A DNA stretch of 47,212 nt, taken from positions 1 through 47,212 of the forward strand of contig BGKB01000282.1 in NCBI GenBank assembly GCA_003116975.1, written 5' to 3'. The notes beneath the pieces were generated by a model. The model was not told the DNA's origin. It was given only the letters and a program-made list of their open reading frames with translations, and searched no databases. The first letter of the stretch is position 1; each line of letters opens with the position of its first letter. Origin of the DNA: Aurantiochytrium sp. KH105. Taxonomy: Eukaryota > Sar > Bigyra > Thraustochytrida > Thraustochytriidae. The translations under genes were made by a program, and so were the position numbers. Of this stretch, positions 1,285 through 30,090 are shown in pieces.

Positions 1285-1295
1285 TAATCATCTTT

Positions 1296-3393: not shown

Positions 3394-4141
3394 TAAGTCA
3401 TACCGCTTGCATGCCAGCTGTGATGTAGCGCTGCGTAGTTGTCCGTCGTTCTCACGCCGAGCCAGAGTTTGGCGACTTTTTATAGAAAAGAAAAGTGAAG
3501 GGAAAGAAGCAGGCGCGGGGGCTGTATTGTAGCGTTAATCGTCAAGCGCGGCCGAAGTTGCCGAGCTGCCGGCGTCTGATCTCTCCGCGAAAAAGGACTG
3601 CCTTCTTCGGAACAGCCTTGGCCGGCTGCACAGCCATGCTTCGCATGATGAGCGCCCGCCGACAGCCCAGCAATCTTGCTTCGACCTCTCCCTCGAGCAG
3701 CATTCGCCCGGGTCGGGTGTGTACCTTCCTCCGCCTCCGGGACTTTCGGTCACGAATGCCTGTAAAGCTGGCTGCTCCAGAACACCGATCTGCAATCATT
3801 CATCGCGCAAACAACTCGACGGCGCGAGGCGCGCTCTGCCATGCCTGCCGACCTTGATGTAAAGCGAAGCGACCCGCGAGGTGCGCGGCGCCTCCCGCGG
3901 AGATCGGCTGCGCCAGCACGTGAGGAAGACTGGCAGCAGAAGCAGTGACACGTTTTTTGGCCGCAGAAATGGCGGTGTCACGTTTTCCGCCCTCGGGTGT
4001 TGCTCGGTGACACGATTTTGGGCATCGCTGCGCCACGGACGGAAGCTATCCTCACGGGGAAGTCCGGGCGAGCAAACCCGTATCTCCGCAAGGGCTCAAA
4101 GCGGAGTCGGTGACAACAGCACTGTTTTGCCTGTCACCAAT
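3394..4141 (+). promoter_or_regulatory. Leader of array copy A
   Basis: Noncoding 5' region homologous to the other leaders. It carries an E-box-like CACGTG (3917-3922) and three copies of the 7-mer GTGWCAC (3945, 3975, 4007). Short ORFs here do not keep frame between copies because of small indels, so it is read as promoter plus 5' UTR. The transcription start is not identifiable. Confidence 0.6.
3945..3981 (+). promoter_or_regulatory. GTGACAC/GTGTCAC inverted pair, copy A
   Basis: GTGACAC (3945-3951) and GTGTCAC (3975-3981) are exact reverse complements 30 nt apart. The inner arms are weakly complementary in this copy. It could be a DNA-binding site pair or an RNA hairpin in the leader. 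Its presence in A, B, C and E argues against chance. Confidence 0.45.
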
Positions 4142-7100
4142 ATGGACGAAGAGGCCATGGAGAACTTGCGCGGTGGCGAAGGCGCCGGAGACGCGGAGAT
4201 ACTTGCTCACGCCGATGATGCAGCAAACGCCGAGCCTGTTCAAGGCAATCAAGTGCCTCAGCAGCATGGTGCGGGATTGCATGATGGAGATGACCAGCAA
4301 GTGCTTGAAGCTAATCAAGAGGTCTTAGATCTTGCTGCTGCTCCTGATGGAGGCAACGATCTTCCGCCGGCTGCTGCTGATGAGGACATTGACTTTGTTC
4401 GGCTGGATGATTTCATGTGGGAAGAGTTTGAAGCACTTTGGGAGACAGAGCAAAGCTCGATCGAGCATATGCGCAGGACTCATACTAATAATACGCAAAG
4501 ATCTGCAGGGACAAATCAGTCCAATGAAATCAGGGATGGTCACATCGAAGATGATGTGGAACAATTTTTCAGGAGTCATGTGAAGAAAGATTGCCTTGAC
4601 AAATATGAACAAGAAGTCAGGAACAGAAAAGAGAAAAGTCGCTTTGTGGATCTCAATAAAGTTCGAAAACCTATCGAGAAGGCGCTCGAGATTGGCCGTC
4701 CATCTTCTGACTCTGATTATCTTGAAACTTTTTCTGGGTACAATCAGTCCAATATCACAGACTTGCACAACTTTCTGAAAAGGCTGGTCACCAACACCAA
4801 CTCTAAATCCGAGCAGATGAGAACGATATGGTCCAATGCCCAAGAGCGTATCAAAAATCGTAATCCCCGAAATCTCGTGACAAAGGGGAAAATGTACAAG
4901 TTCTCTCGGCTAGTCGTGAAACACCTGGTCGAGCTTTCTGAGAGTCAACATTTCCCTTCGAATAATGAGGGCACGAATCGCAGAATCGACGAATGGATTG
5001 CCTGGTGCGATGTGCAGACTATTACAGCGCTCGTTCGAGAGGCCGAGACGTTTCTCGACGAGGGGAATCAGTTTGGCCTCATGAACCATCTTCTCAGCAG
5101 CTACGTAGGCGTTCATGAGCTGAACAAGCTGCGCTCCTCGTTCACACGTTTCAATGAACAAAAGAAAAAGATTGGATGGAGCCTCCGTCGTATTGGGTGG
5201 CTACTTTGCGGGCAACGCCCTGGACGGCCCCAAGCGAATCCTCCAGAAGATACCTTACCACTCGCACATTTTGCCAAATGGACCGCTGTAGTTCTCTTTA
5301 CATCTCCAGAGGCTTTACTTGCAAAAGAGCCCGAAGAACTCAGAGTTTGGCTTGATGGTGTGGTGCGCGACGTCAGCAAAAAAGCAAACAATCAAGCCTC
5401 TGGCCAAAAGCGTTCATCGTCATCTGGATCTGCGGCCTCATCACAATCGAACACGAGGCGTCGCACCAACGGGAACATGGGTCAAGCTCCTCTCGCGACC
5501 CTTGTTCGGCTGCCAATGCTCTCGTTTCGTTACATTCTCGAGTTTGTGCAATCTCAAATTTCGGCACTTTTCCCTTTCCAGGTGCCTCAGCTGATGGGAC
5601 CCAGCGCACCCGAGAGCAAACATCGTGCCAAGCCTCGTGTGCGAGGTGTCAGCTCGACGTTCGTCAAACTTTTGGGCCGCTTCATTGCCCCCAACACACT
5701 CGATGCTTTCCAAGTAGCAGACTTGCTTGCCGAAAAGATGGATTGCGAGGTCGATGATGCAGAAGGAGGCTGTACCGGCCTGGAGAGCTTTCTAGGCTCA
5801 GAGCATGGTGCCGCCATGCGAGACGAGCTGCTTGGGCTGGCCGAAGGTCCGGCGGAGAAGGACATGAGCACCTGGTTTGATAAGGCAACGCACTTTGTCT
5901 GCTACCACCCCGAGCGACCCTTCCAGACTGTCATCGATAGTCTGGTCGACGATTCGCAACCTCGTGCCTACTGGTGGATCGACCTCGTGAGCAACGCAAG
6001 ACCAAGAGGCCAGAACGAGAGTACGCGTGTGGACTCGTTTGTTGCCATTCGGTCAACACAGAGTTTCGCCATGGTCATCGATGACTGGCAGAACCCTTCT
6101 GTGGTCTCTCGCGAGTCGTGTCGCGCTGAAATCGCCGTTGCTGTTGATGAAGGCCGGACCCTGCGTGCCGTCATGCCCAAGGCCATTCGTGAGGACCTAA
6201 ACGCGTTCAGCAATAACGTCATGAGCCTGAAACAAGACGAAGCACCGGAGGACGACCGTCGAGACGGCCAGGCCGAAATCGACAAGCTCCGCGACGCGCT
6301 TCAAAGCCAAGACAAGAGCCTAGAAGCCTCAAACAAGTACAGTGCACAGATCGACTTGAAGACGCGTTTGGCAATCATGGAAGTCATTCTCAAGCCCGCC
6401 AAAGATCTCATCAGACAGCACAGAGGCCCCGGGAACCCCACGCCGCTGTTGAATCTCATCGAAAGATGCCTGGATGTTGTCGACGCCACCAATGCGTTTG
6501 TCGCACTCGCCCCGGCATTCACCATCCAAGGGAGGCTCGTGGAAGGGATCAACATGCTTGAGCGCATCGCCGAGAAGGTCAGCAACGAGCTGTACGGTAC
6601 CCCGAAACCCTCGCGCGCGCGCTGTGCCGATCTGGAAAACGTATTGGGACGTGCGCTCTTTTCCATGGGTCGTCTGTATTGCGACTCGTTCAGCGGCGAC
6701 AAGGCTGTGGCCTGCGCAGAGCTCTGCTGCGATGCGGCCATTGCTATTCTCGAAGCAAGTAGGGACCCTCTCTGTGCTCGGGCCCAGTACGTTCTAGCCC
6801 GAACGCTCGTCAATTGCCATATGACGATCACCAGTTTCTCGGCTCGAGACAAGGCAGCAGACACCGAAAAGGCGACCAAGATGCTCGATGCGGCTATCGC
6901 GTCAATGGAACATGATAATGCACTTCAGGCTGACCTGGGGGCCTTGTATGTCCACCGAGCAAAGCTGAGCGATCTGAGCGGCAAGTCAGCTTCCGTGGTG
7001 GAGGAGGACTTCGAGAGAGCCATAGGCGTGCAGGTCGACCTTTACGGCCCTTGTGACCCGCGACTGAACCTCACCTCAAAGTGCCGCGGTCAAAGCTGGT

Positions 7101-7813
7101 ACTGGCGGGGGAACGTCGCGAAAGCTGTCTTCCATTGGACGCAATCGTTCTCGCACATTTTCGACGGCTTCGCGGTCCATTCTGTGCCGGCATACCACGT
7201 GTTCAAGATCTTGTCGTTCAGCTGGATAGGCTTCGCCAAGCTGCGCGAGGAGAGATCTGAGATGTCGTTCCAGGAGCAAGGCTTTGTCGCACGTACAGTG
7301 GAGCCTTACTTTGTGCAGAATCGCGAGCGTCTTTTTGAAGAGCTGGAGGGGTACTACCCCGGCGAGGCGGTTCAATGCGACGAGATCGGCTTTGACTGGA
7401 TCGCAACGAGCCTGCGACGGATCTTGGTGGTCGAAGAGGATGCACGCCTTGATGCGGCCATCAAAGATGAGCTCTTCGCAGACTATCAAGTCGATCTCGT
7501 CACAACGGTCGAGGGTGCAAAGCAAAAGCTCGCCGAGCACATCTACGCCGCCGCGCTGGTGGCGAGCGACAGCGTTGCTGCTTCGGCGCTGGCAGCACAC
7601 CGAACGATTTCGAGCACGGAAGGGTCGAGTGCGCGACCTCATTCCAAACTGATCCGATTCAGCGATGAAGAACTTGATGATGACGGTGAGTTTGACGTGC
7701 ATCGTCCCGCGGACTTGCAAAGTGTTTTGTCGGACGCCTTTTTTGAGCCCACTGCACGTCTTACTGTTGCCTTTGCGAAGCTTCCGCGCATGTCTTCGCA
7801 CCTTACAGCCTAA
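4142..7813 (+). CDS. Array copy A: TIR-like/TPR-like/receiver-like protein
   Basis: 1223 aa from ATG 4142. The frame is open further upstream (to 3881), but copy B is not open there and copies B and E share the same MDEEAMENLRGG start, which fixes this ATG. Order: acidic variable N-terminus with one VPQQHGAG-type repeat (about 32-80); shared helical domain (about 133-405); basic Ser-rich linker, possible NLS (about 413-443); TIR-like region 578-685 with YWWIDL (610-615), DDWQNP (647-652) and SCRAEI (659-664, Glu663 at the place of the TIR catalytic Glu); charged coiled coil (695-735); TPR-like helices (740-1075); REC-like fold 1092-1205 (ILVVEED, then IRFS, then RPADL). The protein has no signal peptide or clear membrane segment, so it is probably cytosolic or nuclear. 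The domain names are my reading of motif patterns; I know no characterised relative. Confidence 0.8.
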   Translation: MDEEAMENLRGGEGAGDAEILAHADDAANAEPVQGNQVPQQHGAGLHDGDDQQVLEANQEVLDLAAAPDGGNDLPPAAADEDIDFVRLDDFMWEEFEALWETEQSSIEHMRRTHTNNTQRSAGTNQSNEIRDGHIEDDVEQFFRSHVKKDCLDKYEQEVRNRKEKSRFVDLNKVRKPIEKALEIGRPSSDSDYLETFSGYNQSNITDLHNFLKRLVTNTNSKSEQMRTIWSNAQERIKNRNPRNLVTKGKMYKFSRLVVKHLVELSESQHFPSNNEGTNRRIDEWIAWCDVQTITALVREAETFLDEGNQFGLMNHLLSSYVGVHELNKLRSSFTRFNEQKKKIGWSLRRIGWLLCGQRPGRPQANPPEDTLPLAHFAKWTAVVLFTSPEALLAKEPEELRVWLDGVVRDVSKKANNQASGQKRSSSSGSAASSQSNTRRRTNGNMGQAPLATLVRLPMLSFRYILEFVQSQISALFPFQVPQLMGPSAPESKHRAKPRVRGVSSTFVKLLGRFIAPNTLDAFQVADLLAEKMDCEVDDAEGGCTGLESFLGSEHGAAMRDELLGLAEGPAEKDMSTWFDKATHFVCYHPERPFQTVIDSLVDDSQPRAYWWIDLVSNARPRGQNESTRVDSFVAIRSTQSFAMVIDDWQNPSVVSRESCRAEIAVAVDEGRTLRAVMPKAIREDLNAFSNNVMSLKQDEAPEDDRRDGQAEIDKLRDALQSQDKSLEASNKYSAQIDLKTRLAIMEVILKPAKDLIRQHRGPGNPTPLLNLIERCLDVVDATNAFVALAPAFTIQGRLVEGINMLERIAEKVSNELYGTPKPSRARCADLENVLGRALFSMGRLYCDSFSGDKAVACAELCCDAAIAILEASRDPLCARAQYVLARTLVNCHMTITSFSARDKAADTEKATKMLDAAIASMEHDNALQADLGALYVHRAKLSDLSGKSASVVEEDFERAIGVQVDLYGPCDPRLNLTSKCRGQSWYWRGNVAKAVFHWTQSFSHIFDGFAVHSVPAYHVFKILSFSWIGFAKLREERSEMSFQEQGFVARTVEPYFVQNRERLFEELEGYYPGEAVQCDEIGFDWIATSLRRILVVEEDARLDAAIKDELFADYQVDLVTTVEGAKQKLAEHIYAAALVASDSVAASALAAHRTISSTEGSSARPHSKLIRFSDEELDDDGEFDVHRPADLQSVLSDAFFEPTARLTVAFAKLPRMSSHLTA

Positions 7814-7847
7814 GGTAAGAGCTAAACCCTGAAAGGACCCCGGACAA

Positions 7848-7853
7848 AATAAA
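7848..7853 (+). terminator. AATAAA-type polyadenylation signal, copy A
   Basis: AATAAA lies 35 nt after the stop codon in an A/T-rich tail shared with copies B and E. It is absent from the shortened tails of C, D and F. Confidence 0.45.
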
Positions 7854-7875
7854 AATTTATACAATAAGAAGTTGA

Positions 7876-8651: not shown

Positions 8652-11600
8652 ATGGACGAAGAAGCCATGGAGAACTTGCGCGGTGGCGAAGGCGCCGGAG
8701 ACGAGGAGAGTCTTGCTCGCGGTGTGACCACTGACAGCAACACCATCGACGATACAGCAAACGCCGTGTCTATTCACGGCAATCAAGTGTCTCAGCAGCA
8801 TGGTGCGGGATCGCATGATGGAGATGACCAGCAAGTGCATGAAGCTGATCAAGAGGTCCGAGATCTTGCTGCTGATTCTTCGGGAGGCAACGATCTTCTG
8901 CAGGCTGCTGCTGCTGCTTCTGCCGATGATTGGCAGCAGATGGCTGATTTTCTTCAATTTGCGGAGGAAGAATTGCTCCAGACACCTTTGGAGACAGAGC
9001 CAGGGTGTGTTGAAGATGCACCAAGGAGTCCTGCATTAGGGGCTCTTGACAATTTGCAACGAGGCCCTGAGACAATCCTGACTTATGAATTCTCTGAGCC
9101 TGTTCACCGTGAGCAAGTGCCTCAGCAGCATGGTGCGGGATTGCTTGTTGGAGATAGCCAACAAGTGCTTGAAGCTAATCAAGAGGTCCGTGCTCTTGCT
9201 GCTGCTTCTTCGGGAGGCAAAGAGCTTCCGGAGACTGCTAATTTCAAAGACCTCGGAGCTGATGCTAACTCGGATTCGCGTGAAACTGACTCCGTAGACC
9301 AAAGAGATGAGGGCGATGACTTTCATCCGCTGACCGAGTCAAGCAACGCCACCGCAGGAGGTAACGCTGGCAGCGGTGCCCTTCAGGCAAACAATGCGTC
9401 CAAACCCACGAAGGAAGAGTCTCTTAAGGCTACTATCAATGAAGAGCTAAGGTCTGTTGAAAATGCACGACAGGGTTGGGGGGCAACCCAAGCCGATGAA
9501 ACTAGAAATGCTCACGTCGAAGACCATCCCGGATATTTTTTCCGATATAGCTTAAGGGATGGCGCGTTGGATGAATATCGAGATAATCTCACGAACATCA
9601 GGACGTACCTCGACGCTCTGCAAACCAGACCTGGAAATGATTCGAACGATTTCAAACAATGCAAAAGTCACTTCGTGGATCTCGACAAGATTCGGCAACC
9701 TATTGAGAAGGCGCTCGAGATTGGCGGTCTTGCTTCTGACTTTGATTATCTCGATTATCTCGAACTTTGGGGTGGGTACAATCAGTCCGATATTACAGAC
9801 TTGTTGGACTTTCTGAAAAGGCTGGTCACCAACACCAACTCTAAATCCAAGAAGATGAGCACGATATGGTCCAACGCCCAAAAGCGTGTTGAAAATGGTG
9901 GTCCACACCAAATTGGGAGGAATGGAAGCATGTACAAGTTCTCTCAGCGTGTCGTGGATCACCTGGTCGAGCTTTCTGAGAGTCAACATGACTCTTCGAC
10001 TCATGATATGCAGAGAAAGATTATTGCGTGGCGCGCCTGGTGCAATGTGCAGACCATCACAGAACTTGTTCGAGGGGCTAAGCCGTTTCGTGCAGAGGGG
10101 AATCAATTTGGCCTCATGAACAATCTTCTCAGCAAGTATGTGGACGAGCGTGGGCTGAACAAGCTGCGTTCTTTATTCATGAAATTCAATGATGAAAAAG
10201 CGGCAGTTGGGTGGCGCCTCCGCCGTATTGGGTGGCTACTTTGCGGGCAACGCCCTGGACGGCCCCAAGCGAATCCTCCAGAAGATACCTTACCCCTCGC
10301 ACATTTTGCCAAATGGACCGCTGCAATTCTCTTTATGGTTCCAGAGAAATTTCTTGCGAAATCGCCCGAGAAACTCAGGGTTTGGCTTGAGGATGTGGTG
10401 CGCGACGTCAGCAAAAAAGGAAACAATAAAGCCTCCGGCCAAAAGCGTTCATCGTCATCTGGATCTGCGGCCTTGTCACAATCGAACACGAGGCGTCGCA
10501 CCAACGGGAACATGGGTCAAGTTCCTCTCGCGACCCTTGCTCGGCTGCCAATGCTCTCGTTTCGTTACATTCTCGAGTTTGTGCAGTCTCAAATTTCAGC
10601 ACTTTTCCCTTTCCAGGTGCCTCAGCTGATGGGACCCAGCGCACCCGAGAGCAAACATCGTGCCAAGCCTCGTGTGCGAGGCGTCAGCTCGACGTTCGTT
10701 AAACTCTTGGGCCGCTTCATTGCCTCCAACACACCCGATGAACCGGGCCGATTCACAGTCAATGCCTTCCAAGTAGCAAACTTGCTTGCCGAAAAGATGG
10801 ATCGCGAGGTCGATGATGAAGAAGGAGGCTTTACCGGCCTGGAGAGCTTTCTAGGCTCGGAGCGTGGTGCTGCAATGCGGAACGAGCTGCTTCGGCTGGC
10901 CGAAGATCCGGCGGAGAAGGACACGAGCACCTGGTTTGACAAGGCGACGCACTTTGTCTGCTACCACCCCGAGCGACCCTTCCAGACTGTCATCGATAGT
11001 CTGGTCGACGATTCGCAACCTCGCGCCTACTGGTGGATCGACCTCGTGAGCAACGCAAGGCCAAGAGGTCAGAACGATAGTACGCGTGTGGACTCGTTTG
11101 TTGCCATTCGAACAACACAGAGTTTCGCCATGGTCATCGATGACTGGCAGAACCCTTCTGTGGTCTCTCGCGGGTCGTGCCGCGCTGAAATCGCCGTTGC
11201 TGTTGATGAAGGCCGGATCCTGCGTGCCGTCATGTCAAAGGCCGTTCGTGAGGACCTAGTCGCGTTCAGCAACAAAGTCATGCGCTCAAAACAAGACGAA
11301 GCACCGGAGGACGACCGTCGAGACGGCCAGGCTGAAATCGACAAGCTCAGCGACGCGCTTCAAAGCCAAGGCAAGAGCCTAGAAGCCTCAAACAAGTACA
11401 GTGCGCAGATCGACTTGAAGACGCGTTTGGCAATCATAGAAGTCATTCTCAAGCCCGCCAAAGATCTCATCAGACAGCACACAGGACCCGGGAACCCCAC
11501 GCCGCTGTTGAATCTCATCGAAAGGAGCCTGGATGTTGTCGACGCCACCAATGCGTTTGTCGCACTCGCCCCGGCATTCACCATTCAAGGGAGGCTCGCG

Positions 11601-12872
11601 GAAGGGATCAACATGCTTGAGCGCATCGCCGAAAAGGTCAGCAAAGAGCTGCATGGTACCTCGAAACCCTCGCGCGCGCGCTGTGCCGATCTGGAAAACG
11701 TATTGGGACGTGCGCTTTTTTCCATGGGTCGTCTATATTGCGACTCGTTCAGCGGCGACAAGGCCGTGGCCTGCGCAGAGCTCTGCTGCGATGCGGCTAT
11801 TGCTATTCTCGAAGCATGTGGGGACCCTCTCTGTGCTCGGGCCCAGTATGTTCTGGCCCGAACGCTCGTCAACTGCCATATGACGATCACCAGTTTCTCG
11901 GCTCGAGACAAGGCAGCAGACACCGAAAAGGCGACCAAGATGCTCGATGCCGCTATCGCGTCAATGGAACGTGATAATGCACTCCAGGCTGACCTGGGGG
12001 CCTTGTACGTCCACCGAGCAAAGCTGAGCGATCTGAGCGGCAAACCAGCATCCGTGGTGGAGGAGGACTTCGAGAGAGCCATAGGCGTGCAGGTCGACCT
12101 TTACGGCCCTTGTGACCCGCGACTGAACCTCACCTCCAAGTGCCGCGGCCAAAGCTGGTTCTGGCGGGGCGACGTCGCGAAAGCTGTCTTCCATTGGACG
12201 CAATCGTTCTCACACATTTTCGACGGTTTCGCGGCCCATTCTGTGCCGGCATACCACGTGTTCAAGATCTTGTCGTTCAGCTGGATAGGCTTCGCCAAGC
12301 TGCGCGAGGAGAGATCGGAGATGTCGTTCCAGGAGCAAGGCTTTGTCGCACGTACAGTGGAGCCTTACTTTGTGCAGAATCGCGAGCGTCTTTTTGAAGA
12401 GCTGGAGGGGTACTACCCCGGCGAGGCGGTTCAATGCGACGAGATCGGCTTTGACTGGATCGCAACGAGCCTGCGACGGATCTTGGTGGTCGAAGAGGAT
12501 GCACGCCTTGATGCGGCCATCAAAGATGAGCTCTTCGCAGACTATCAAGTCGATCTCGTCACAACGGTCGAGGGTGCAAAGCAAAAGCTCGCCGAGCACA
12601 TCTACGCCGCCGTGCTGGTGGCGAGCGACAGCGTTGCTGCTTCGGCGCTGGCAGCACACCGAACGATTTCGAGCACGGAAGTGTCGAGTACGCGACCTCA
12701 TTCCAAACTGATCCGATTCAGCGATGAAGAACTTGATGATGACGGTGAGTTTGACGTGCATCGTCCCGCGGACTTGCAAAGTGTTTTATTGGACGCCTTT
12801 TTTGAGCCCACTGCGCGTCTTGCCGTTGCCTTTGCGAAGCTTCCGCGCATGTCCCCGCATCTCGCAGCCTAA
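8652..12872 (+). CDS. Array copy B: TIR-like/TPR-like/receiver-like protein (longest copy)
   Basis: 1406 aa from the conserved MDEEAMENLRGG start. It is longer than copy A because the N-terminal region holds two repeat units of roughly 110 aa (each with a QVxQQHGAG core, a GGNDL/GGKEL segment and an acidic tail) plus an extra Asp/Ser-rich stretch before the HVEDHPGYFF motif that opens the shared middle domain. From the basic linker to the C-terminus it is nearly identical to copy A, including WIDL, DDWQNP, SCRAEI, the TPR-like helices and the receiver-like end. A small insertion (EPGRFTVN) precedes the segment NAFQVANLLAEKM; C carries a shorter form (EPGRVN). The reading frame is intact, with AATAAA at 12910. 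Confidence 0.8.
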   Translation: MDEEAMENLRGGEGAGDEESLARGVTTDSNTIDDTANAVSIHGNQVSQQHGAGSHDGDDQQVHEADQEVRDLAADSSGGNDLLQAAAAASADDWQQMADFLQFAEEELLQTPLETEPGCVEDAPRSPALGALDNLQRGPETILTYEFSEPVHREQVPQQHGAGLLVGDSQQVLEANQEVRALAAASSGGKELPETANFKDLGADANSDSRETDSVDQRDEGDDFHPLTESSNATAGGNAGSGALQANNASKPTKEESLKATINEELRSVENARQGWGATQADETRNAHVEDHPGYFFRYSLRDGALDEYRDNLTNIRTYLDALQTRPGNDSNDFKQCKSHFVDLDKIRQPIEKALEIGGLASDFDYLDYLELWGGYNQSDITDLLDFLKRLVTNTNSKSKKMSTIWSNAQKRVENGGPHQIGRNGSMYKFSQRVVDHLVELSESQHDSSTHDMQRKIIAWRAWCNVQTITELVRGAKPFRAEGNQFGLMNNLLSKYVDERGLNKLRSLFMKFNDEKAAVGWRLRRIGWLLCGQRPGRPQANPPEDTLPLAHFAKWTAAILFMVPEKFLAKSPEKLRVWLEDVVRDVSKKGNNKASGQKRSSSSGSAALSQSNTRRRTNGNMGQVPLATLARLPMLSFRYILEFVQSQISALFPFQVPQLMGPSAPESKHRAKPRVRGVSSTFVKLLGRFIASNTPDEPGRFTVNAFQVANLLAEKMDREVDDEEGGFTGLESFLGSERGAAMRNELLRLAEDPAEKDTSTWFDKATHFVCYHPERPFQTVIDSLVDDSQPRAYWWIDLVSNARPRGQNDSTRVDSFVAIRTTQSFAMVIDDWQNPSVVSRGSCRAEIAVAVDEGRILRAVMSKAVREDLVAFSNKVMRSKQDEAPEDDRRDGQAEIDKLSDALQSQGKSLEASNKYSAQIDLKTRLAIIEVILKPAKDLIRQHTGPGNPTPLLNLIERSLDVVDATNAFVALAPAFTIQGRLAEGINMLERIAEKVSKELHGTSKPSRARCADLENVLGRALFSMGRLYCDSFSGDKAVACAELCCDAAIAILEACGDPLCARAQYVLARTLVNCHMTITSFSARDKAADTEKATKMLDAAIASMERDNALQADLGALYVHRAKLSDLSGKPASVVEEDFERAIGVQVDLYGPCDPRLNLTSKCRGQSWFWRGDVAKAVFHWTQSFSHIFDGFAAHSVPAYHVFKILSFSWIGFAKLREERSEMSFQEQGFVARTVEPYFVQNRERLFEELEGYYPGEAVQCDEIGFDWIATSLRRILVVEEDARLDAAIKDELFADYQVDLVTTVEGAKQKLAEHIYAAVLVASDSVAASALAAHRTISSTEVSSTRPHSKLIRFSDEELDDDGEFDVHRPADLQSVLLDAFFEPTARLAVAFAKLPRMSPHLAA

Positions 12873-12909
12873 GGGAAGAGCTAAACCCTGAAGAAAGGTC
12901 GTCGGACAA

Positions 12910-12915
12910 AATAAA
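12910..12915 (+). terminator. AATAAA-type polyadenylation signal, copy B
   Basis: Same position relative to the stop codon as in copy A, within the conserved 3' tail. Confidence 0.45.
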
Positions 12916-12937
12916 AATTTATACATTAAGAAGTTGA

Positions 12938-20000: not shown

Positions 20001-21143
20001 CGTCTGTATTGCGACTCGTTCAGCGGTGACAAGGCCGTGGCCTGCGCAGAGCTCTGCTGCGATGCGGCTATTGCTATTCTCGATGCATGTGGGGACCCTC
20101 TCTGTGCTCGGGCCCAGTACGTTCTGGCCCGTACGCTCGTCAACTGCCATATGACGATCACCAGTTTCTCGACTCGAGACAAGGCAGCAGACATCGAAAA
20201 GGCGACCAAGATGCTCGATGCGGCAATTTCGACAATGGAACGTGATAATGCACTCCAGGCTGACCTGGGGGCCTTGTACGTCCACCGAGCAAAGCTGAGC
20301 GATCTGAGCGGCAAGCCAGCATCCGTGGTGGAGGAGGACTTCGAGAGAGCCATAGGCGTGCAGGTCGACCTTTACGGCCCTTGCGACCCGCGACTGAACC
20401 TCACCTCCAAGTGCCGCGGCCAAAGCTGGTACTGGCGGGGGAACGTCGCGAAAGCTGTCTTCCATTGGACGCAAGCGTTCTCACACATTTTCGACGGCTT
20501 CGCGGCTCATTCTGTGCCGGCATACCACGTGTTCAAGATCTTGTCGTTCAGCTGGATAGGCTTCGCCAAGCTGCGCGAGGAGAGATCTGAGATGTCGTTC
20601 CTGGAGCAGGACTTTGTCGAACGTACAGTGGAGCCTTACTTTGTGAAGAACCGCCAACATCTTCTTAAGGAGCTGGAGGGGTACTACCCCGGCGAGGCGG
20701 TTCAATGCGACGAGATCGGCTTTGACTGGATCGCAACAAGCCTGCGACGGATCCTGGTGGTCGAAGAGGATGCGCGCCTTGATGCGGCCATCAAAGACGA
20801 GCTCTTCGCAGACTATCAAGTCGATCTCGTCACAACGGTCGAGGGTGCAAAGGAAAAGCTCGCCGAGCACATCTACGCCGCCGTGCTGGTGGCGAGCGAC
20901 AGCGTTGCTGCTTCGGCGCTGGCAGCACACCGAACGATTTCGAGCACGGAAGTGTCGAGTACGCGACCTCATTCCAAACTGATCCGATTCAGCGATGAAG
21001 AACTTGATGATGACGGTGAGTTTGACGTGCATCGTCCCGCGGACTTGCAACGCGTTTTATCGGACGCCTTTTTTGAGCACACTGCACGTCTTGCTGTTGC
21101 CTTTGCGAAGCTTCCGCGCATGTCTCCGCACCTTACAGCCTAA
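17067..21143 (+). CDS. Array copy D: TIR-like/TPR-like/receiver-like protein, usual start lost
   Basis: The homologous frame opens right after a TAG at 16983-16985, and the conserved MDEEAMEN start is deleted. The first in-frame ATG is 17067 (MPAHGEQVPQQHGA), giving 1358 aa. Translation from a TTG at 16989 is conceivable but unlikely in a eukaryote. Like B, it has two N-terminal repeat units of about 110 aa. The region before the middle domain has a unique stretch (about 215-250). The TIR-like, TPR-like and receiver-like regions are intact and match the other copies. Shared changes with E (FLEQDFVERTVEPYFVKNRQH, split by position: FLEQDFVERT then PYFVKNRQH) mark D and E as closest relatives at the 3' end. 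Expression is less certain because the leader is also altered. Confidence 0.65.
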   Translation: MPAHGEQVPQQHGAESLVGDSQQELEADQEVPELPAASSGGNDLPQAAAPSANEWQQTDLLQPTEEKLPQALFETEPGCVEDAPRVPAYGAHDGLQQGPWTIPTNETAVPVHREQVPQQHGAGLLFGNSQQELEANQEFRGLPAASSKGNDLPQAADSKELRADSILDPREIESIDQRDAGADLHPLTESRNTTAGGKAGIDAHEGNNAPEPTEKESPQATLSKEERCVFSILQVHGTAQANEIRYGHVEDHPAIFFLVSLENGALGEYQDLLTLISTCINDPERISLGKQEHAKQCKSRFMDLDKIRKPIEKALEIGRPPSVFVYTETFSGCNQSDITDLHNFLKRLVTNTNSTSKKMSTIWSNAQNHVANRGPQQIGWNGNMYKFSQRVVDHLVELSVSQHVSSTYDMHRKITEWRAWCNVQTITELVRGAKTFLNEGNQFGLINLLLSKYVDVHELNNLRSSFTSFCESKKKYGWLLRRIGWLLCGQRPERPQTNPPREPLPLAHFARWTAAILFISPEDLLAKEPEELKAWLDGVVHDVSKKGNNKASGQKRSSPSRSAASSPADKRQRTDGTMVHGALATLARLPMLSFRYMFEFLQSQFSALLPSQVPLLMGPSTAEDKHHAKPRARGVSSAFVKLLSRLVASNTLDKLDAFQVADLLAEKMDREVDDEEGGFTGLESFLGSEHGAAMRDELLGLAEGPAEKDTSTWFDKATHFVCYHPERPFQTVIDSLVDDSQPRAYWWIDLVSNARPRGQNDSTRVDSFVAIRSTQSFAMVIDDWQNPSVVSRESCRAEIAVAVDEGRTLRAVMSNAVREGLEAFSNKVMRSEQDEAPEDDRRDGQTEIDKLRDALQSQDKSLEASNKYSAQIDLKTRLAIIEVILKPAKDLIRQHRGPGNPTPLLDLIESSLDVVDATNAFVALAPAFTIQGRLVEGINMLERIAEKVSKELHGTPKPSRARCADLENVLGRALFSMGRLYCDSFSGDKAVACAELCCDAAIAILDACGDPLCARAQYVLARTLVNCHMTITSFSTRDKAADIEKATKMLDAAISTMERDNALQADLGALYVHRAKLSDLSGKPASVVEEDFERAIGVQVDLYGPCDPRLNLTSKCRGQSWYWRGNVAKAVFHWTQAFSHIFDGFAAHSVPAYHVFKILSFSWIGFAKLREERSEMSFLEQDFVERTVEPYFVKNRQHLLKELEGYYPGEAVQCDEIGFDWIATSLRRILVVEEDARLDAAIKDELFADYQVDLVTTVEGAKEKLAEHIYAAVLVASDSVAASALAAHRTISSTEVSSTRPHSKLIRFSDEELDDDGEFDVHRPADLQRVLSDAFFEHTARLAVAFAKLPRMSPHLTA

Positions 21144-21192
21144 CGTAAGAGCTAAACCCTGAAAGGACCCCGGACAAAATATAAGAAGTTGA

Positions 21193-21933: not shown

Positions 21934-24900
21934 ATGGACGAAGAGGCCATGGAGAACTTGCGCGGTGGCGAAGGCGCCGGAGACGCGGAGATACTTGCTC
22001 ACGCCGATGATGCAGCAAACGCCGAGCCTGTTCAAGGCAATCAAGTGCCTCAGCAGCATGGTGCGGGATTGCATGATGGAGATGACCAGCAAGTGCTTGA
22101 AGCTTATCAAGAGGTCTTAGATCTTGCTGCTGCTCCTGATGGAGGCAACGATCTTCCGCAGGCTGCTGCTGCTTATGCCAATGATTGGCAGGAGGTGGCT
22201 GAAAATCTTCAGCCCACGGAGGAAGAGTCTCTTGAGGCTACTATCAATGAAGAGCTAAGGTCTGTTGAAAATGCACGACAGGGTTGGGGGGCAATTCAAG
22301 CCGATGAAAATGGTCACGTCGAAGACCATCCCGGATATTTTTTCCGATATAGCTTAAGGGATGGCGCGTTGGATGAATATCGAGATAATCTCACGAACAT
22401 CAGGACGTACCTCGACGCTCTGCAAACCAGACCTGGAAATGATTCGAACGATTTCAAACAATGCAAAAGTCACTTCGTGGATCTCAACAAGATTCGACAG
22501 CCTATTGAGAAGGCGCTCGAGATTGGCGGTCCACCTTCTGACTCTGATTATCTTGAAACTTTTTCTGGGTACAATCAGTCCAATATCACAGACTTGCACA
22601 ACTTTCTGAAAAGGCTGGTCACCAACACCAACTCTACATCCCAGCAGATGATCACGATATGGTCCAACGCCCGGAGGCGTATCGAAAATCGTGGTCCGCA
22701 ACAAATCGGGGGGAATGGAAACATGTACAAGTTCTCTCAGTGCGTCGTGAATCACCTGGTCGAGCTTTCTGGGAGTCAGCATGACATTTACGAATTGCAT
22801 GAAAAGATTACTGAGTGGATCGCCTGGTGCAATGTGCAGACCATTACAACGCTCGTTCTCGAGAATGGGAACTTTCGCAAAGATGGAAATCAGTTTGGCC
22901 TCATGAATTACCTTCTCAGCAAGTATGTAGACGTCCATGGGCTGAACAATCTGCGTTCTTCATTCGTAAGCTTCTGTGAAAGTAAAAAGAAATATGGTTG
23001 GCTCCTCCGCCGTATTGGGTGGCTACTTTGCGGGCAACGCCCTGGGCTGCCCCAGGCAAGTCCTCCAGAAGATACCTTACCACTCGCACATTTTGCCAAA
23101 TGGACCGCTGCAATTCTCTTTATGGTTCCAGAGACGTTTCTTGCGAAATCGCCCGAGAAACTCAGGGTTTGGCTTGAGGATGTGGTGCGCGACGTCAGCA
23201 AAAAAGCAAACAATCAAGCCTCCGGCCAAAAGCGTTTATCGTCATCTGGATCTGCGGCCTCGTCACAATCGAACACGAGGCGTCGCACCAACGGGAACAT
23301 GGGTCAAGCTCCTCTCGCGACCCTTGCTCGGCTGCCAATGCTCTCGTTTCGTTACATTCTCGAATTTGTGCAATCTCAATTTTCGGCACTTTTCCCTTTC
23401 CAGGTGCCTCTGCTGATGGGACCCAGCGCACCCGAGAGCAAACATCGTGCCAAGCCTCGTGTACGAGGCGTCAGCTCGGCATTCGTCAAACTCTTGGGCA
23501 GCTTCATTGCCTCCAACACACTCGATAAACTCGATGCCTTTCAAGTAGCAGACTTGCTTGCCGAAAAGATGGATCGCGAGGTCGATGATGAAGAAGGAGG
23601 CTTCACCGGCCTGGAGAGCTTTCTAGGCTCGGAGCATGGTGCCGCCATGCGAGACGAGCTGCTTGGGCTGGCCGAAGGTCCGGCGGAGAAGGACACGAGC
23701 ACCTGGTTTGACAAGGCGACGCACTTTGTCTGCTACCACCCCGAGCGACCCTTCCAGACTGTCATCGATAGTCTGGTCGACGATTCGCAACCTCGCGCCT
23801 ACTGGTGGATCGACCTCGTGAGCAACGCAAGGCCAAGAGGTCAGAACGAAAGTACGCGTGTGGACTCGTTTGTCGCCATTCGGTCAACACAGAGTTTCGC
23901 CATGGTCATCGATGACTGGCAGAACCCTTCTGTGGTCTCTCGCGAGTCGTGCCGCGCTGAAATCGCCGTTGCTGTTGATGAAGGCCGGACCCTGCGTGCC
24001 GTCATGCCCAAGGCCATTCGTGAGGACCTAAACGCGTTCAGCAAAAACGTCATGAGCCTGAAAAAAGACGAAGCACCGGAGGACGACCGTCGAGACGGCC
24101 AGGCTGAAATCGACAAGCTCCGCGACGCGCTTCAAAGCCAAGACAAGAGCCTAGAAGCCTCAAACGAGTACAGTGCGCAGATTGACTTGAAGACGCGTTT
24201 GGCAATCATAGAAGTCATTCTCAAGCCCGCCAAAGATCTCATCAGACAGCACACAGGACTCGGGAACCCCACGCCGCTGTTGGATCTCATCGAAAGCAGC
24301 CTGGATGTTGTCGACGCCACGAATGCATTTGTCTCACTCGCCCCGGCATTCACCATCCAAGGGAGGCTCGTGGAAGGGATCAACATGCTTGAGCGCATCG
24401 CCGAAAAGGTCAGCAAAGAGCTGCATGGTACCCCGAAACCGTCGCGCGCGCGCTGTGCCGATCTGGAAAACGTATTGGGACGTGCGCTCTTTTCCATGGG
24501 TCGTCTGTATTGCGACTCGTTCAGCGGCGACAAGGCCGTGGCCTGCGCAGAGCTCTGCTGCGATGCGGCCATTGCTATTCTCGAAGCATGTGGGGACCCT
24601 CTCTGTGCTCGAGCCCAGTACGTTCTGGCCCGTACGCTCGTCAACTGCCATATGACGATCACCAGTTTCTCGGCTCGAGACAAGGTAGCAGACATCGAAA
24701 AGGCGACCAAGATGCTTGATGCCGCTATCGCGTCAATGGAACGTGATAATGCACTCCAGGCTGACCTGGGGGCCTTGTACGTCCACCGAGCAAAGCTGAG
24801 CGATCTGAGCGGCAAACCAGCATCCGTGGTGGAGGAGGACTTCGAGAGAGCCATAGGCGTGCAGGTCGACCTTTACGGCCCTTGCGACCCGCGACTGAAC

Positions 24901-25644
24901 CTCACCTCCAAGTGCCGCGGTCAAAGCTGGTACTGGCGGGGGAACGTCGCGAAAGCTGTCTTCCATTGGACGCAATCGTTCTCGCACATTTTCGACGGCT
25001 TCGCGGTCCATTCTGTGCCGGCATACCACGTGTTCAAGATCTTGTCGTTCAGCTGGATAGGCTTCGCCAAGCTGCGCGAGGAGAGATCTGAGATGTCGTT
25101 CCTGGAGCAGGACTTTGTCGAACGTACAGTGGAGCCTTACTTTGTGAAGAACCGCCAACATCTTTTTAAGGAGCTGGAGGGGTACTACCCCGGCGAGGCG
25201 GTTCAATGCGACGAGATCGGCTTTGACTGGATCGCAACGAGCCTGCGACGGATCTTGGTGGTCGAAGAGGATGCACGCCTTGATGCGGCCATCAAAGATG
25301 AGCTCTTCGCAGACTATCAAGTCGATCTCGTCACAACGGTCGAGGGTGCAAAGGAAAAGCTCGCCGAGCACATCTACACCGCCGTGCTGGTGGCGAGCGA
25401 CAGCGTTGCTGCTTCGGCGCTGGCAGCACACCGAACGATTTCGAGCACGGAAGTGTCGAGTACGCGACCTCATTCCAAACTGATCCGATTCAGCGATAAA
25501 AAACTTGATGATGACGGTGAGTTTGACGTGCATCGTCCCGCGGACTTGCAAAGCGTTTTATCGGACGCCTTTTTTGAGCCCACTGCGCGTCTTGCCGTTG
25601 CCTTTGCGAAGCTTCCGCGCATGTCTTCGCACCTTACAGCCTAA
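21934..25644 (+). CDS. Array copy E: TIR-like/TPR-like/receiver-like protein, mosaic N-terminus
   Basis: 1236 aa from the conserved MDEEAMENLRGG start. The N-terminal half is a patchwork. The first 75 residues are nearly those of A. The next stretch, from TINEELRSVENARQG through NDSNDFKQCKSHFVDL, matches B. DSDYLETFSGYNQSNITDL matches A again. SQQMITIWSNARRRIENRG matches C. FCESKKKYGWLLRRIGW matches D. The rest (basic linker, TIR-like WIDL/DDWQNP/SCRAEI, TPR-like, receiver-like) is the common version. One late difference is SDKKLDDD where others have SDEELDDD. The frame is intact and AATAAA follows at 25682. Confidence 0.8.
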   Translation: MDEEAMENLRGGEGAGDAEILAHADDAANAEPVQGNQVPQQHGAGLHDGDDQQVLEAYQEVLDLAAAPDGGNDLPQAAAAYANDWQEVAENLQPTEEESLEATINEELRSVENARQGWGAIQADENGHVEDHPGYFFRYSLRDGALDEYRDNLTNIRTYLDALQTRPGNDSNDFKQCKSHFVDLNKIRQPIEKALEIGGPPSDSDYLETFSGYNQSNITDLHNFLKRLVTNTNSTSQQMITIWSNARRRIENRGPQQIGGNGNMYKFSQCVVNHLVELSGSQHDIYELHEKITEWIAWCNVQTITTLVLENGNFRKDGNQFGLMNYLLSKYVDVHGLNNLRSSFVSFCESKKKYGWLLRRIGWLLCGQRPGLPQASPPEDTLPLAHFAKWTAAILFMVPETFLAKSPEKLRVWLEDVVRDVSKKANNQASGQKRLSSSGSAASSQSNTRRRTNGNMGQAPLATLARLPMLSFRYILEFVQSQFSALFPFQVPLLMGPSAPESKHRAKPRVRGVSSAFVKLLGSFIASNTLDKLDAFQVADLLAEKMDREVDDEEGGFTGLESFLGSEHGAAMRDELLGLAEGPAEKDTSTWFDKATHFVCYHPERPFQTVIDSLVDDSQPRAYWWIDLVSNARPRGQNESTRVDSFVAIRSTQSFAMVIDDWQNPSVVSRESCRAEIAVAVDEGRTLRAVMPKAIREDLNAFSKNVMSLKKDEAPEDDRRDGQAEIDKLRDALQSQDKSLEASNEYSAQIDLKTRLAIIEVILKPAKDLIRQHTGLGNPTPLLDLIESSLDVVDATNAFVSLAPAFTIQGRLVEGINMLERIAEKVSKELHGTPKPSRARCADLENVLGRALFSMGRLYCDSFSGDKAVACAELCCDAAIAILEACGDPLCARAQYVLARTLVNCHMTITSFSARDKVADIEKATKMLDAAIASMERDNALQADLGALYVHRAKLSDLSGKPASVVEEDFERAIGVQVDLYGPCDPRLNLTSKCRGQSWYWRGNVAKAVFHWTQSFSHIFDGFAVHSVPAYHVFKILSFSWIGFAKLREERSEMSFLEQDFVERTVEPYFVKNRQHLFKELEGYYPGEAVQCDEIGFDWIATSLRRILVVEEDARLDAAIKDELFADYQVDLVTTVEGAKEKLAEHIYTAVLVASDSVAASALAAHRTISSTEVSSTRPHSKLIRFSDKKLDDDGEFDVHRPADLQSVLSDAFFEPTARLAVAFAKLPRMSSHLTA

Positions 25645-25681
25645 GGGAAGAGCTAAACCCTGAAGAAAGGTCGCCGGACAA

Positions 25682-25687
25682 AATAAA
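25682..25687 (+). terminator. AATAAA-type polyadenylation signal, copy E
   Basis: Same tail as copies A and B, about 38 nt after the stop codon. Confidence 0.45.
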
Positions 25688-25709
25688 AATTTATACAATA
25701 AGAAGTTGA

Positions 25710-26458: not shown

Positions 26459-29400
26459 ATGGAGAACTTGCGCGGTGGCGAAGACCTTGGAGACGAGGAG
26501 GAGCTTGCTGACTTAAACGTTCATGAGCCGCAGCCGGAGAATCTTCATCGCTCTGATTCGCTGTCAGAGGAGTTCAACGCATATGTGGAGGCAGAGAAAA
26601 AGGATGTTGCAGCTCGGCTAAGGGCTTTTGATAACAAGCAGGCCGTCGGAGCCGGGGGTGGTCACATCGAAGATGACGCCGGAGATTTTTTCTGGAGTCA
26701 TGTGGAAAATGACGCGCGCTTTATCAAAAACCTTCGCAAGTATGAACAAATTATCACAAACATCATCCAAAACCCAAGAAACGTCAAAAAGCAGAAAAAT
26801 CGCTTTTATGATCTCTATAAGCTCCAAAAGCTGGTTGAAAAAGTGTTGGAAACTTATAATCACGCAGATGAACTCGACTCCGAGAACATCCAAGATCTCC
26901 GCATCATACCATACCTGCAGCCGCATGTCCTAAGGTTCCTGACCAACTCCAACACTGACGCCAAATCGCTCAAGGCAAGGTTTGAAAGGCTCCTTACGGT
27001 CACCGAAAACCCGCTCCCCGTACAAGAAGCAGGAGGAAAAAAGTTCAGGTTTTCTCAGCGAGGTATTAAGCATCAAGGTGAGCTCGCTATGGCCAGTCCG
27101 AGCGAAAGAGAGACGATGCTCTCGAAATGGCTTGCTCTGTTCTCTTTAGATGCCTTCGCAAAGAATCTTCCGAGTCCGAGAGACAAATTTCACGAAACAG
27201 GGAATACTTTTGGCATCGTGAGTGCCCTTCTCGGAGACTTTGTCGGCCAGGACCCCGCCAGCATCTCGCCTCATATATTTCTGGACTTTGTGAAACGGCG
27301 AAAAGGGTTTACTTGGAGCCTCCGTAAAATCGGGTGTCTCCTTTGCCGCAACTCTCGAGGGGGGCTCCTCGTCACAGACTTTGCAAAATGGACCGCTGCA
27401 ATTCTTTTCGTGAATCCAGAGAAGAATTTTGATGCGAAATTGCCCGAGGAATACAGAGTCTGGCTCAAGAATATGTTGCACCGCCCCAGAGACGAAGCAA
27501 ACAACCAAGGCCCCGGCCCAAAACGTCCACTGTCACCTGAACCAGAGGCCTCGCCACAGCCGAACAAGACACAGCGCACGGACAGGGACATGACGCAAAC
27601 TCCTCGCGAGACCCTTGCTCAGCCGCCAATGGCCCCGTTTGCATCTGCGGACGAACCTCATGCCAAGCCTCGTGTGCGAGGCGTCAGCTCGGCATTCGTC
27701 AAACTCTTGGGCCGCTTCATTGCCTCCAACACACTCGATAAACTCGATGCCTTTCAAGTAGCAGACTTGCTTGCCGAAAAGATGGATCGCGGGGTCGATG
27801 ACGAAGAAGGAGGCTTTGCCGGCCTGGAGAGCTTCCTAGGCTCGGAGCATGGTGCTGCCATGCGAGATGTGCTGTTTGGGTTGGCCGAAGATTCGGCGGA
27901 GAAGGACACAAACCCTTGGTTTGACAAAGCGACGCACTTTGTCTGCTACCACCCCGATCGGCCCTTCCAGACGGTCATCGATAGTCTGGCCGACAATTCG
28001 CAGCCTCGCGTTTACTGGTGGATCGACCTCGTGAGCAACGCAAGGCCAAGAGGCCAGAACGAAAGTACGCGTGTGGACTCGTTTGTTGCCATTCGATCAA
28101 CACAGAGTTTCGCCATGGTCATCGATGACTGGCAAAACCCTTCTGTGGTCTCTCGCGAGTCGTGCCGCGCTGAAATCGCCGTTGCTGTCGATGAAGGCCG
28201 GACCCTGCGTGCCGTCATGCCAAAGGCCATCCAAGAGGACCTAATCGCGTTCAGCAACAACGTCATGCATTCAGAACAAGACGAAGCACCCGAGGACGAC
28301 CATCGAGACGGCCAGGCTGAATTCGACAAGCTTAGTCACGCACTAGTAGATCAAGGCAAGAGCCTAGAAGCCTCAAACAACTACAGTGCGCAGATCTACT
28401 TGAAGACGCGTTTGGCAATCATAGAAGTCATTCTCAAGCCCACCAAAGATCTCATCAGACAGCACAGAGGCCCTGGAAACCTCACACCGCAGTTAAACTT
28501 TATCGAAAGAAGCCTGGATGTTGTCGACGCGACCAATGCATTTGTCGCACTCGCCCCGGCATTCACTATCCAAGGGAGGCTCGCAGAAGGGATCAGCATG
28601 CTTAAGCGCATCTCTAAAAAGGTCAGCAAAGAGCTGTACGGTACCCCGAAACCCTCTCTCGCGCGCTGTGCCGATCTGAAAAACGTATTGGGGCGTGCGC
28701 TCTTTTCCATGGGTCGTCTGTATTGCGACACATTTAGCGGCGACAGGGCCGTGGCCTGCGCAGAGCTCTGCTGCGATGCGGCCATTGCTATTCTTGAAGC
28801 ATGTGGGGACCCTCTCTGTGCTCGAGCCCAGTACGTTTTGGCCCGTACGCTCGTCAACTGTCATATGACGATTACCAGTTTCTCGGCTCGAGACAAGGCA
28901 GCAGACATCGAAAAGGCGACCAAGATGCTCGATGCGGCAATTTCGACAATGGAACGTGATGAAGCACTCCAGGCTGACCTGGGGGCCTTGTACGTCCACC
29001 GAGCAAAGCTGAGCGATCTGAGCGGCAAGCCAGCATCCGTGGTGGAGGAGGACTTCGAGAGAGCCATAGGCGTGCAGGTCGACCTTTACGGCCCTTGCGA
29101 CCCGCGACTGAACCTCACCTCAAAGTGCCGCGGCCAAAGCTGGTACTGGAGGGGCAACGTCGCGAAAGCTGTCTTCCACTGGACGCAAGCGTTCTCGCAC
29201 ATTTTCGACGGCTTCGCGGCCAATTCTGTGCCGGCATACCACGTGTTCAAGATCTTGTCGTTCAGCTGGATAGGCTTCGCCAAGCTGCGCGAGGAGAGAT
29301 CGGAGATGTCGTTCCAGGAGAAGGACTTTGTCGCATGTACAGTGGAACCTTACTTTGTGACGAATCGCAAGCGTCTTTTTGAAGAGCTGGAGGGGTACTA

Positions 29401-29857
29401 TCCCGGCGAGGCGGTTCAATGTGATGAGATCGGCTTTGACTGGATCGCAACGAGCCTGCGACGGATCTTGGTGGTCGTAAAGGATACTTGCCTTGAGAAG
29501 GCCATCAAAGATGAGCTCTTCGCAGACTATCAAGTCGATCTCGTCAGGACGGTCGAGGGTGCAAAGGAAAAGCTCGCCGAGCACATCTACGCCGCCGTGC
29601 TGGTGGCGAGCGACAGCGTTGCTGCTTCGGCGCTGGCAGCGCATCCAACGATTTTGGACACGGAAGGGTCAAGTGCGCGACCTCATTCCAAGCTGATCCG
29701 GTTCAGTGATGAAGAAGTTGATGATGACGGTGAGTTTGACGTGTATCATCCCGCGGACTTGCAAAGCGTTTTATTTGACGCCTTTTATCAGCACGCTACG
29801 CGTCTTGACGCTGCCTTTGCGAAGCTTCCGCGCATGTCTCTGCACCTTACAGCCTAA
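26459..29857 (+). CDS. Array copy F: most divergent TIR-like/TPR-like/receiver-like protein
   Basis: 1132 aa from ATG 26459 (MENLRGGEDLGDEEELA). The shared frame is open upstream to 26258, but the alignment with other copies favours this ATG. The N-terminal 400 residues are much more diverged than in A-E: no VPQQHGAG repeat, and the middle domain is recognisable only by GHIEDDAGDFF, GNTFGI and the WSLRKIGCLLC segment. The hydrophobic LPMLSFRYILEF segment after the basic linker is missing. From KPRVRGVSSAFVKLLG on it closely resembles D and E, which implies sequence transfer into its 3' half. The receiver-like region has local changes (VVVKDTCLEKA, DAFYQHATRLDAAF). The reading frame is intact. 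Confidence 0.8.
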   Translation: MENLRGGEDLGDEEELADLNVHEPQPENLHRSDSLSEEFNAYVEAEKKDVAARLRAFDNKQAVGAGGGHIEDDAGDFFWSHVENDARFIKNLRKYEQIITNIIQNPRNVKKQKNRFYDLYKLQKLVEKVLETYNHADELDSENIQDLRIIPYLQPHVLRFLTNSNTDAKSLKARFERLLTVTENPLPVQEAGGKKFRFSQRGIKHQGELAMASPSERETMLSKWLALFSLDAFAKNLPSPRDKFHETGNTFGIVSALLGDFVGQDPASISPHIFLDFVKRRKGFTWSLRKIGCLLCRNSRGGLLVTDFAKWTAAILFVNPEKNFDAKLPEEYRVWLKNMLHRPRDEANNQGPGPKRPLSPEPEASPQPNKTQRTDRDMTQTPRETLAQPPMAPFASADEPHAKPRVRGVSSAFVKLLGRFIASNTLDKLDAFQVADLLAEKMDRGVDDEEGGFAGLESFLGSEHGAAMRDVLFGLAEDSAEKDTNPWFDKATHFVCYHPDRPFQTVIDSLADNSQPRVYWWIDLVSNARPRGQNESTRVDSFVAIRSTQSFAMVIDDWQNPSVVSRESCRAEIAVAVDEGRTLRAVMPKAIQEDLIAFSNNVMHSEQDEAPEDDHRDGQAEFDKLSHALVDQGKSLEASNNYSAQIYLKTRLAIIEVILKPTKDLIRQHRGPGNLTPQLNFIERSLDVVDATNAFVALAPAFTIQGRLAEGISMLKRISKKVSKELYGTPKPSLARCADLKNVLGRALFSMGRLYCDTFSGDRAVACAELCCDAAIAILEACGDPLCARAQYVLARTLVNCHMTITSFSARDKAADIEKATKMLDAAISTMERDEALQADLGALYVHRAKLSDLSGKPASVVEEDFERAIGVQVDLYGPCDPRLNLTSKCRGQSWYWRGNVAKAVFHWTQAFSHIFDGFAANSVPAYHVFKILSFSWIGFAKLREERSEMSFQEKDFVACTVEPYFVTNRKRLFEELEGYYPGEAVQCDEIGFDWIATSLRRILVVVKDTCLEKAIKDELFADYQVDLVRTVEGAKEKLAEHIYAAVLVASDSVAASALAAHPTILDTEGSSARPHSKLIRFSDEEVDDDGEFDVYHPADLQSVLFDAFYQHATRLDAAFAKLPRMSLHLTA

Positions 29858-29901
29858 GGTAAGAGCTAAACCCTGAAAGGCCCGGACAAAAGATAAATAT
29901 A

Positions 29902-30090
29902 CAGTAAGAAGTTGAAAAGCCATACCGCTTGCCTGCCAGCTGTGATGTAGCACTGCATACAGTAAGAAGCTGATATATACCGCTTGCCTGCCAGCTGTAA
30001 CGCACCGCTGCGTAGCTCTTCGTATTCACGGCGAGCGAGAGATCGACAGTTTAGGGGAAGGAAGGGGGTGCGCGCGGGGACTGCGTCCCA
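29902..30090 (+). repeat. Right edge of array: decayed, internally duplicated leader start
   Basis: After copy F the unit-start sequence appears twice with a 58-nt period (from 29902 and from 29960). Each has AGTAAGAAG, then CCGCTTGCCTGCCAGCTGT. The match then fades into leader-F-like sequence (GGAAGGGGGTGCGCGCGGGGACTGC region). It is the stump of a seventh unit and marks the array boundary. Confidence 0.75.

Follow-up and report, generated by a model that had tools for sequence, protein, structure and literature searches.

A six-unit tandem array of genes for putative TIR-like, TPR-type and receiver-like proteins in the thraustochytrid Aurantiochytrium sp. KH105

Thraustochytrids, marine decomposers, are used for omega-3 oil. 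In one of them, Aurantiochytrium sp. KH105, contig BGKB01000282.1 of assembly GCA_003116975.1 carries a head-to-tail array of six related genes, which raises the question of what these proteins do and why one end of them is kept alike while the other is not. The stretch analysed (the window, 47,212 nucleotides) is the entire contig, C282 within a 76-Mb assembly of 367 contigs. An earlier reading of the letters alone, hereafter the sequence-only reading, had described six proteins combining TIR-like, TPR-like and receiver-like (REC-like) parts, in an order that it knew from no described family, and had likened them to immune or self/non-self recognition families. We tentatively favour, as possible rather than probable, a tandem family of intracellular receptor-like proteins, in which a fast-diverging N-terminal region would be coupled to a signalling half that recombination between copies keeps uniform.

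The array of six tandem units was confirmed. It occupies positions 3394-29959 on the forward strand, with one family gene per unit and approximate unit bounds of 3394-7863, 7876-12925, 12938-16229, 16238-21184, 21193-25697 and 25710-29959; in the corresponding repeat family (D1), identity to the reference over 300 bases is 89-97% for the five other copies. Copy A (4142..7813; unit about 3394-7863) is a single open frame of 1223 amino acids (aa), and copies B (8652..12872, 1406 aa), E (21934..25644, 1236 aa) and F (26459..29857, 1132 aa, with a divergent N-terminal region) are open as well. The six genes of the sequence-only reading stand as six units, but not as six intact genes. Copy C (13431..16185) is a pseudogene remnant, interrupted by an in-frame stop and by frame breaks and missing a large internal part of the repeat region; the front of its open frame (13431-15356) corresponds to upstream sequence of the unit. 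In copy D (17067..21143) the shared first codons are gone and a stop lies immediately upstream; its open frame (16989-21143, 1384 aa) has its first in-frame ATG at 17067. Identity to copy A is 84-87% for B, D and E and 71% for F. Elsewhere in the assembly there are eight further family genes: contig C133 has three, C88 and C59 have two each, and C69 starts with a frame-shifted one.

Contig C133 is colinear with positions 22213-41161 of the window at 91-95% identity, through a dehydrogenase, M6 peptidase and UFD1 region, and its array has three copies, the first of which is the apparent allele of copy F. For window positions 41162-47212 and 1-3393, no match was found within C133 60001-110000. 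C69, which opens with its frame-shifted copy, is colinear with the flank upstream of the C133 array (94% over 12.7 kb). Given two haplotypes, three copies on C133 would face at least seven on the other (six on C282 and one on C69, if these belong to the same side). This phasing is apparent from colinearity, the gap between C282 and C69 is unbridged and repeat collapse is possible, so that the copy-number contrast is provisional. C59 and C88 look allelic too (91% over 15 kb). Even the conserved half of copies A, B, D and E shows synonymous differences (synonymous divergence, dS, 0.064-0.103), and since a different array moreover lies on the apparently allelic C133, an assembly artefact of one gene, the alternative that the sequence-only reading had itself raised, is unlikely.

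The two parts of the protein contrast in their rates of divergence. Rates were compared in nine of the ten array copies (A, B, D, E, F, the three of C133 and a 976-codon part of the C69 copy, with copy C excluded). Copy F pairs with C133 copy 1, and between these two and the seven others (14 pairs) dS is 0.84-1.12 over residues 96-440, values near saturation and obtained from an alignment of about half-identical proteins, against 0.16-0.21 over residues 576-1223. The fall is located near residue 360-420. Over all 36 pairs the ratio of nonsynonymous to synonymous divergence (dN/dS) ranges from 0.51 to 1.04 in residues 96-440 and from 0.24 to 0.41 in residues 576-1223; by smaller region its mean is highest in the linker at 441-500 (1.21), 0.26 in the TIR and TPR parts and 0.59 in the REC part. 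The part trees, many nodes of which are poorly supported, were compared on the array copies only (again excluding copy C), without the C88/C59 outgroup, whose branches are very long. The N-terminal data reject both C-terminal trees (approximately unbiased test, p-AU 0.0019 and 0.00035), and the N-terminal tree is rejected by the data of both C-terminal parts, C1 (AU p 0.00015) and C2 (3.8e-6). These two C-terminal parts also disagree with each other, at AU 0.037 (C1 data, C2 tree; 0.185 and no rejection by the Shimodaira-Hasegawa, SH, test) and 0.0001. The C69 copy is a mosaic, its N-terminal part being close to C133 copies 3 and 2 (dS 0.087 and 0.096, against 0.302 to copy A) and its C-terminal part to copy A (0.058, against 0.147 to C133 copy 3). 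Together, the mutual rejection of the part trees, the contrast in dS and the C69 mosaic indicate that recombination between copies homogenises the 3' half of the genes. A longest-run test with C69 excluded reached p<=0.01 for 8 of the 28 pairs; it is not leaned on here, since its p values are uncorrected and respond to differences in rate along the gene. The copy loss and N-terminal diversification described in the sequence-only reading are borne out by the broken copy C, the apparent difference of three against at least seven copies and the dS of the N-terminal region.

In copy A the variable region lies at 4427..5311 (about residues 96-390) and has no known match. It can be aligned with that of B, F and the C88 relatives, with 12 invariant columns among five sequences; its divergence may be due to positive selection or to weak constraint. 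Matches to sugar kinases in the PDB (E 0.32-0.58 only) were taken as chance. Next comes a basic, serine-rich linker, read from the sequence (5390..5461, about residues 417-440), which is similarly basic in relatives and which by eye resembles a nuclear localisation signal.

Outside this genome, protein searches recovered two proteins from Hondaea and one from a metagenome (P0003, which aligns at 26% over 92% of the core of C88 gene 1); each search scored about 8000 word-sharing candidates out of 5.8 billion sequences, and absence elsewhere is therefore not proven. The closest Hondaea protein to copy F, Hondaea fermentalgiana FCC1311_083952 (P0001), is an F-type copy matching it at 94.7% and 93.3% in two blocks; unlike copy F it is partial, without the receiver end and without about 120 residues that the F frame has. 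The other, FCC1311_056652 (P0002), is the counterpart of C59 gene 2 (97.1%), and both are annotated as hypothetical proteins. No relative was confirmed among bacterial and archaeal species genomes (26 pattern matches) or viral contigs (25). Within the assembly, divergent relatives form a tandem pair at C88:75-83 kb and C59:76-84 kb (L034, L011, L036, L012), at 43-44% identity for gene 2 and 30-36%, in pieces, for gene 1.

The TIR-like segment (copy A 5873..6241, residues 578-700) carries a C..E motif, SRESCRAEI. A remote relationship to TIR is supported indirectly, by a two-step profile bridge inside this genome and not by Pfam. The bridge is a protein on C26 (L066, C26:117000-120300) in which a TIR-like segment and TPR are fused to a DNA methylase domain; its motifs FFVSHAWG ... 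FWLDIFAVNQH ... RSWCWLE precede TPR and then, at 36.7 bits against a cut-off of 26.7, an N6_N4_Mtase domain. The array family matches the C26 protein at 98.7% probability, with a score of 94.7 where 50 shuffles reach 18.9 at best, and the C26 protein in turn matches canonical TIRs at 82.9% (score 37.6, best of 50 shuffles 20.1). The hhalign shuffle control is imperfect, as one of 50 column shuffles of the combined family and C26 set gave an aberrant score of 133.5 that was reproduced on repeat; the comparisons relied on had no such outlier. The C..E motif, with a Glu after beta-C at the E75 position, was present in 18/18 sequences read, a count that leaves out copy C and 33 unread TIR-like loci, and the alignment suggests that the array Glu is equivalent to the known TIR position. 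A genome search with the core of C88 gene 1 returned 63 rows, allelic copies counted apart, with 26 own-family loci and 37 rows elsewhere; 35 of the latter fell on the TIR-like segment, 14 of them at E 0.001 or better, and two outside loci were read (C26 and a 321-base piece of C52).

The HET domain (PF06985) gave no match over its cut-off, the only one being in P0003 (E 0.0093, 16.7 bits against a cut-off of 22.5), with none in the array segment scanned. Arabinose isomerases appeared in the PDB profile search of the segment at E 0.37-0.39 only and were taken as chance. A membrane anchor was rejected for the array, where the two top-scoring hydrophobic stretches of nine copies lie elsewhere. 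In gene 1 of the C88/C59 pair, a candidate transmembrane stretch does stand ahead of the TIR-like part; in C88 gene 1, C59 gene 1 and P0003 the hydrophobic stretch preceding that part has a mean of 1.79-2.23 over 19 residues.

The repeat region (copy A 6257..7381, residues about 706-1080) is probably of TPR type and partly kinesin-light-chain-like, an assignment that is supported at a level below curated cut-offs, so that the TPR helices of the sequence-only reading survive in this qualified form. No Pfam TPR model exceeded its cut-off in A, B or F, and TPR_12 in the relatives reached 18.5-24.8 bits against 30.1. Searched against the PDB, a family profile gave 21 matches, 14 of them to kinesin light chains (best E 0.0023, over some 50 residues); consensus TPR proteins matched at E 2-2.4.

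For the C-terminal segment (copy A 7415..7756, residues 1092-1205), profile support covers the first half only. All nine PDB profile matches are response regulators (9/9, best E 3.6e-4), over the first 40-50 residues, and hhalign against 12 receivers of this genome gave 79.4% and a score of 35.2, compared with at most 16.3 in 40 shuffles. The second half has no profile support, the receiver model PF00072 matched none of six segments, and in a whole-genome search with it the array loci took 0 of 38 rows. By eye, the phosphoacceptor position after beta-3 is Ala (Met in P0003) and not Asp; the C-terminus, if a receiver, would therefore be a pseudo-receiver. It is in this sense, and for its first half, that the REC-like end of the sequence-only reading can be kept. 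That the order of parts belongs to no described family is consistent with the Pfam, NCBIfam, PDB and protein searches.

How could such a protein work? In the receptor-like reading that we tentatively favour, the fast-diverging N-terminal region would sense something variable, such as a parasite, a virus or another cell, and the TPR-type repeats would assemble the protein. The TIR-like domain would be the output and would probably consume NAD+ or signal as TIR/HET cell-death domains do, and the pseudo-receiver might serve as a phosphate-independent docking or regulatory module. Gene conversion and unequal exchange would keep the signalling half uniform while the N-terminal regions stay different, and would also alter copy number between haplotypes. 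What likens the array to receptor clusters is the combination of a constant signalling half, a divergent front, a difference in copy number, broken copies and a TIR-like output. The immune or self/non-self role suggested in the sequence-only reading is nevertheless still an inference, as are sensing, assembly and enzymatic output. The fuller version, a lineage-restricted protist receptor family with a haplotype-specific N-terminal repertoire in front of a uniform TIR-like/TPR/pseudo-receiver half, NLR-like (in the manner of nucleotide-binding leucine-rich repeat receptors) without the nucleoside triphosphatase (NTPase) switch and acting in immunity or self/non-self recognition, we consider unlikely.

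Several results weigh against this reading. Neither Pfam nor NCBIfam, at their cut-offs, nor any single-sequence match in the PDB puts a name to the array proteins, and Pfam TIR (PF01582/PF13676) found nothing over its curated cut-off in A, B, F, the relatives or cut-out segments. Compared directly with eight canonical TIRs from this genome, the array segment scores 19.3 (1.8%), which is close to noise (40 shuffles reach 17.3 at best), and a joint profile of the family and the C26 protein against canonical TIRs is weak (8.0%, score 24.3). Nor does a Glu at this place alone predict NADase activity (PMC7075850). No NTPase (NB-ARC/NACHT) was matched by Pfam in A, B, F or the relatives, unlike in NLRs, NNH6 staying below cut-off in one relative (E 0.21), and the REC part is just moderately constrained (dN/dS 0.59, all pairs). 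Finally, three of the ten array copies are damaged (C, D at its start, and C69), and in residues 96-440 dN/dS is below 1 in 35/36 pairs, leaving relaxed constraint on the N-terminal region possible.

Among the alternatives, a scaffold or cargo adaptor comes first. In that case the proteins would be kinesin-light-chain-like TPR proteins, their TIR-like and receiver-like parts would only bind protein, and copy number would be a matter of dosage with no defence involved. The kinesin light chains among the PDB profile matches and a pseudo-receiver that by eye lacks the usual phosphorylated Asp fit this; we nevertheless consider it unlikely, as a scaffold predicts neither the roughly 5-fold synonymous contrast between the halves nor allelic arrays of different size, and the C..E motif is kept throughout the sequences read. 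Somewhat less credible still is neutral tandem amplification, in which unequal crossing-over makes and breaks copies and a weakly constrained N-terminal region recognises nothing. The broken copy C, the lost start of D, the frame shift in C69 and the N-terminal dN/dS values, below 1 in all but one pair, speak for it. Against it, open frames of 1129-1406 codons persist in eight of the ten array copies (D lacking the shared start), constraint on the C-terminal half is clear, and even copies that are near synonymous saturation in the N-terminal region still share a pattern of conserved residues there. A selfish or mate/self-recognition locus, at which differing haplotypes would be incompatible or driving as in HET vegetative incompatibility or poison-antidote genes, is very unlikely. 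The very different arrays at one locus and the weak HET match of P0003 speak for it, the coexistence of both arrays in one assembly against it.

Window positions 1-3393, at the contig end, hold a DDE_Tnp_4 element bordering the array, a repeat whose transposase lies on the reverse strand (1296..2738); a search with 200-3300 found 13 further rows in the genome, with near whole-length relatives on C241 (99%), C122 and C44 (94%). On the other side, two tandem short-chain dehydrogenases (30490-33640) adjoin the array. Farther downstream, on the reverse strand, lie an open frame of 1242 aa (41522-45250), possibly transposon-related, which has no Pfam match and whose N-terminus looks zinc-binding-like by eye, and a 363-aa open frame (45485-46576) without Pfam match whose start is HORMA-like by eye only.

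Our search of the open-licence literature found no paper on a TIR domain in thraustochytrids, on TIR-like together with tetratricopeptide parts in stramenopiles, or on TIR with kinesin light chain, algae and tetratricopeptide, and this kind of protein thus seems unstudied in thraustochytrids. Differing copy numbers on apparently allelic contigs, combined with a split into constant and variable halves, make the array a concrete locus for questions of defence or self/non-self recognition.

The genome also holds canonical TIRs. At least 150 TIR_2 matches exceed the Pfam cut-off (150/150 scored, of 258 candidates, with apparent alleles counted separately) and lie in open frames 173-2016 aa long, for instance L058, L059 and L060 on C137, C16 and C24, and both canonical-TIR proteins scanned (2/2) have a Roc-COR-TIR architecture. 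According to a paper on brown algae (PMC11378527), their unicellular SAR relatives have four or fewer ROCO genes, so that the TIR/Roc-COR set found here could be a remarkable expansion.

Several known systems can be set beside the array. Fungal HET proteins, remotely TIR-related, control allorecognition death (PMC10197012), and the het loci resemble the array in this remote TIR-type relationship and in forming large variable non-self families; they differ in that a HET match appears only below threshold and in one relative. In brown algae, NB-ARC-TPR and LRR-ROCO proteins are candidate immune receptors and NB-ARC genes are tandemly duplicated (PMC11378527). These candidates share a stramenopile host and TPR or LRR repeats with the array; they are built on NTPase modules (NB-ARC or ROC) with exon shuffling, whereas the array genes are single open frames with no such match, and since these defining modules were not found the family is not filed as NLR. 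The Roc-COR-TIR proteins of the same genome are likewise a large family with a TIR output, but their Pfam TIR is C-terminal, after a Roc-COR GTPase, and the stretches of three loci that were read contain no TPR-receiver part. In the PDB profile search the repeat region has its best relatives in kinesin light chain TPR, although these match over only about 50 residues (best E 0.0023) and the remaining protein is unrelated. The C26 protein has the WFGPA start, a TIR-like segment with C..E and then TPR, like the array proteins, and differs in having FFVSHAWG at the first box and a C-terminal DNA-methylase domain in place of the receiver: one TIR-like/TPR plan, continued by a putative pseudo-receiver in the array and by a DNA methylase in C26.

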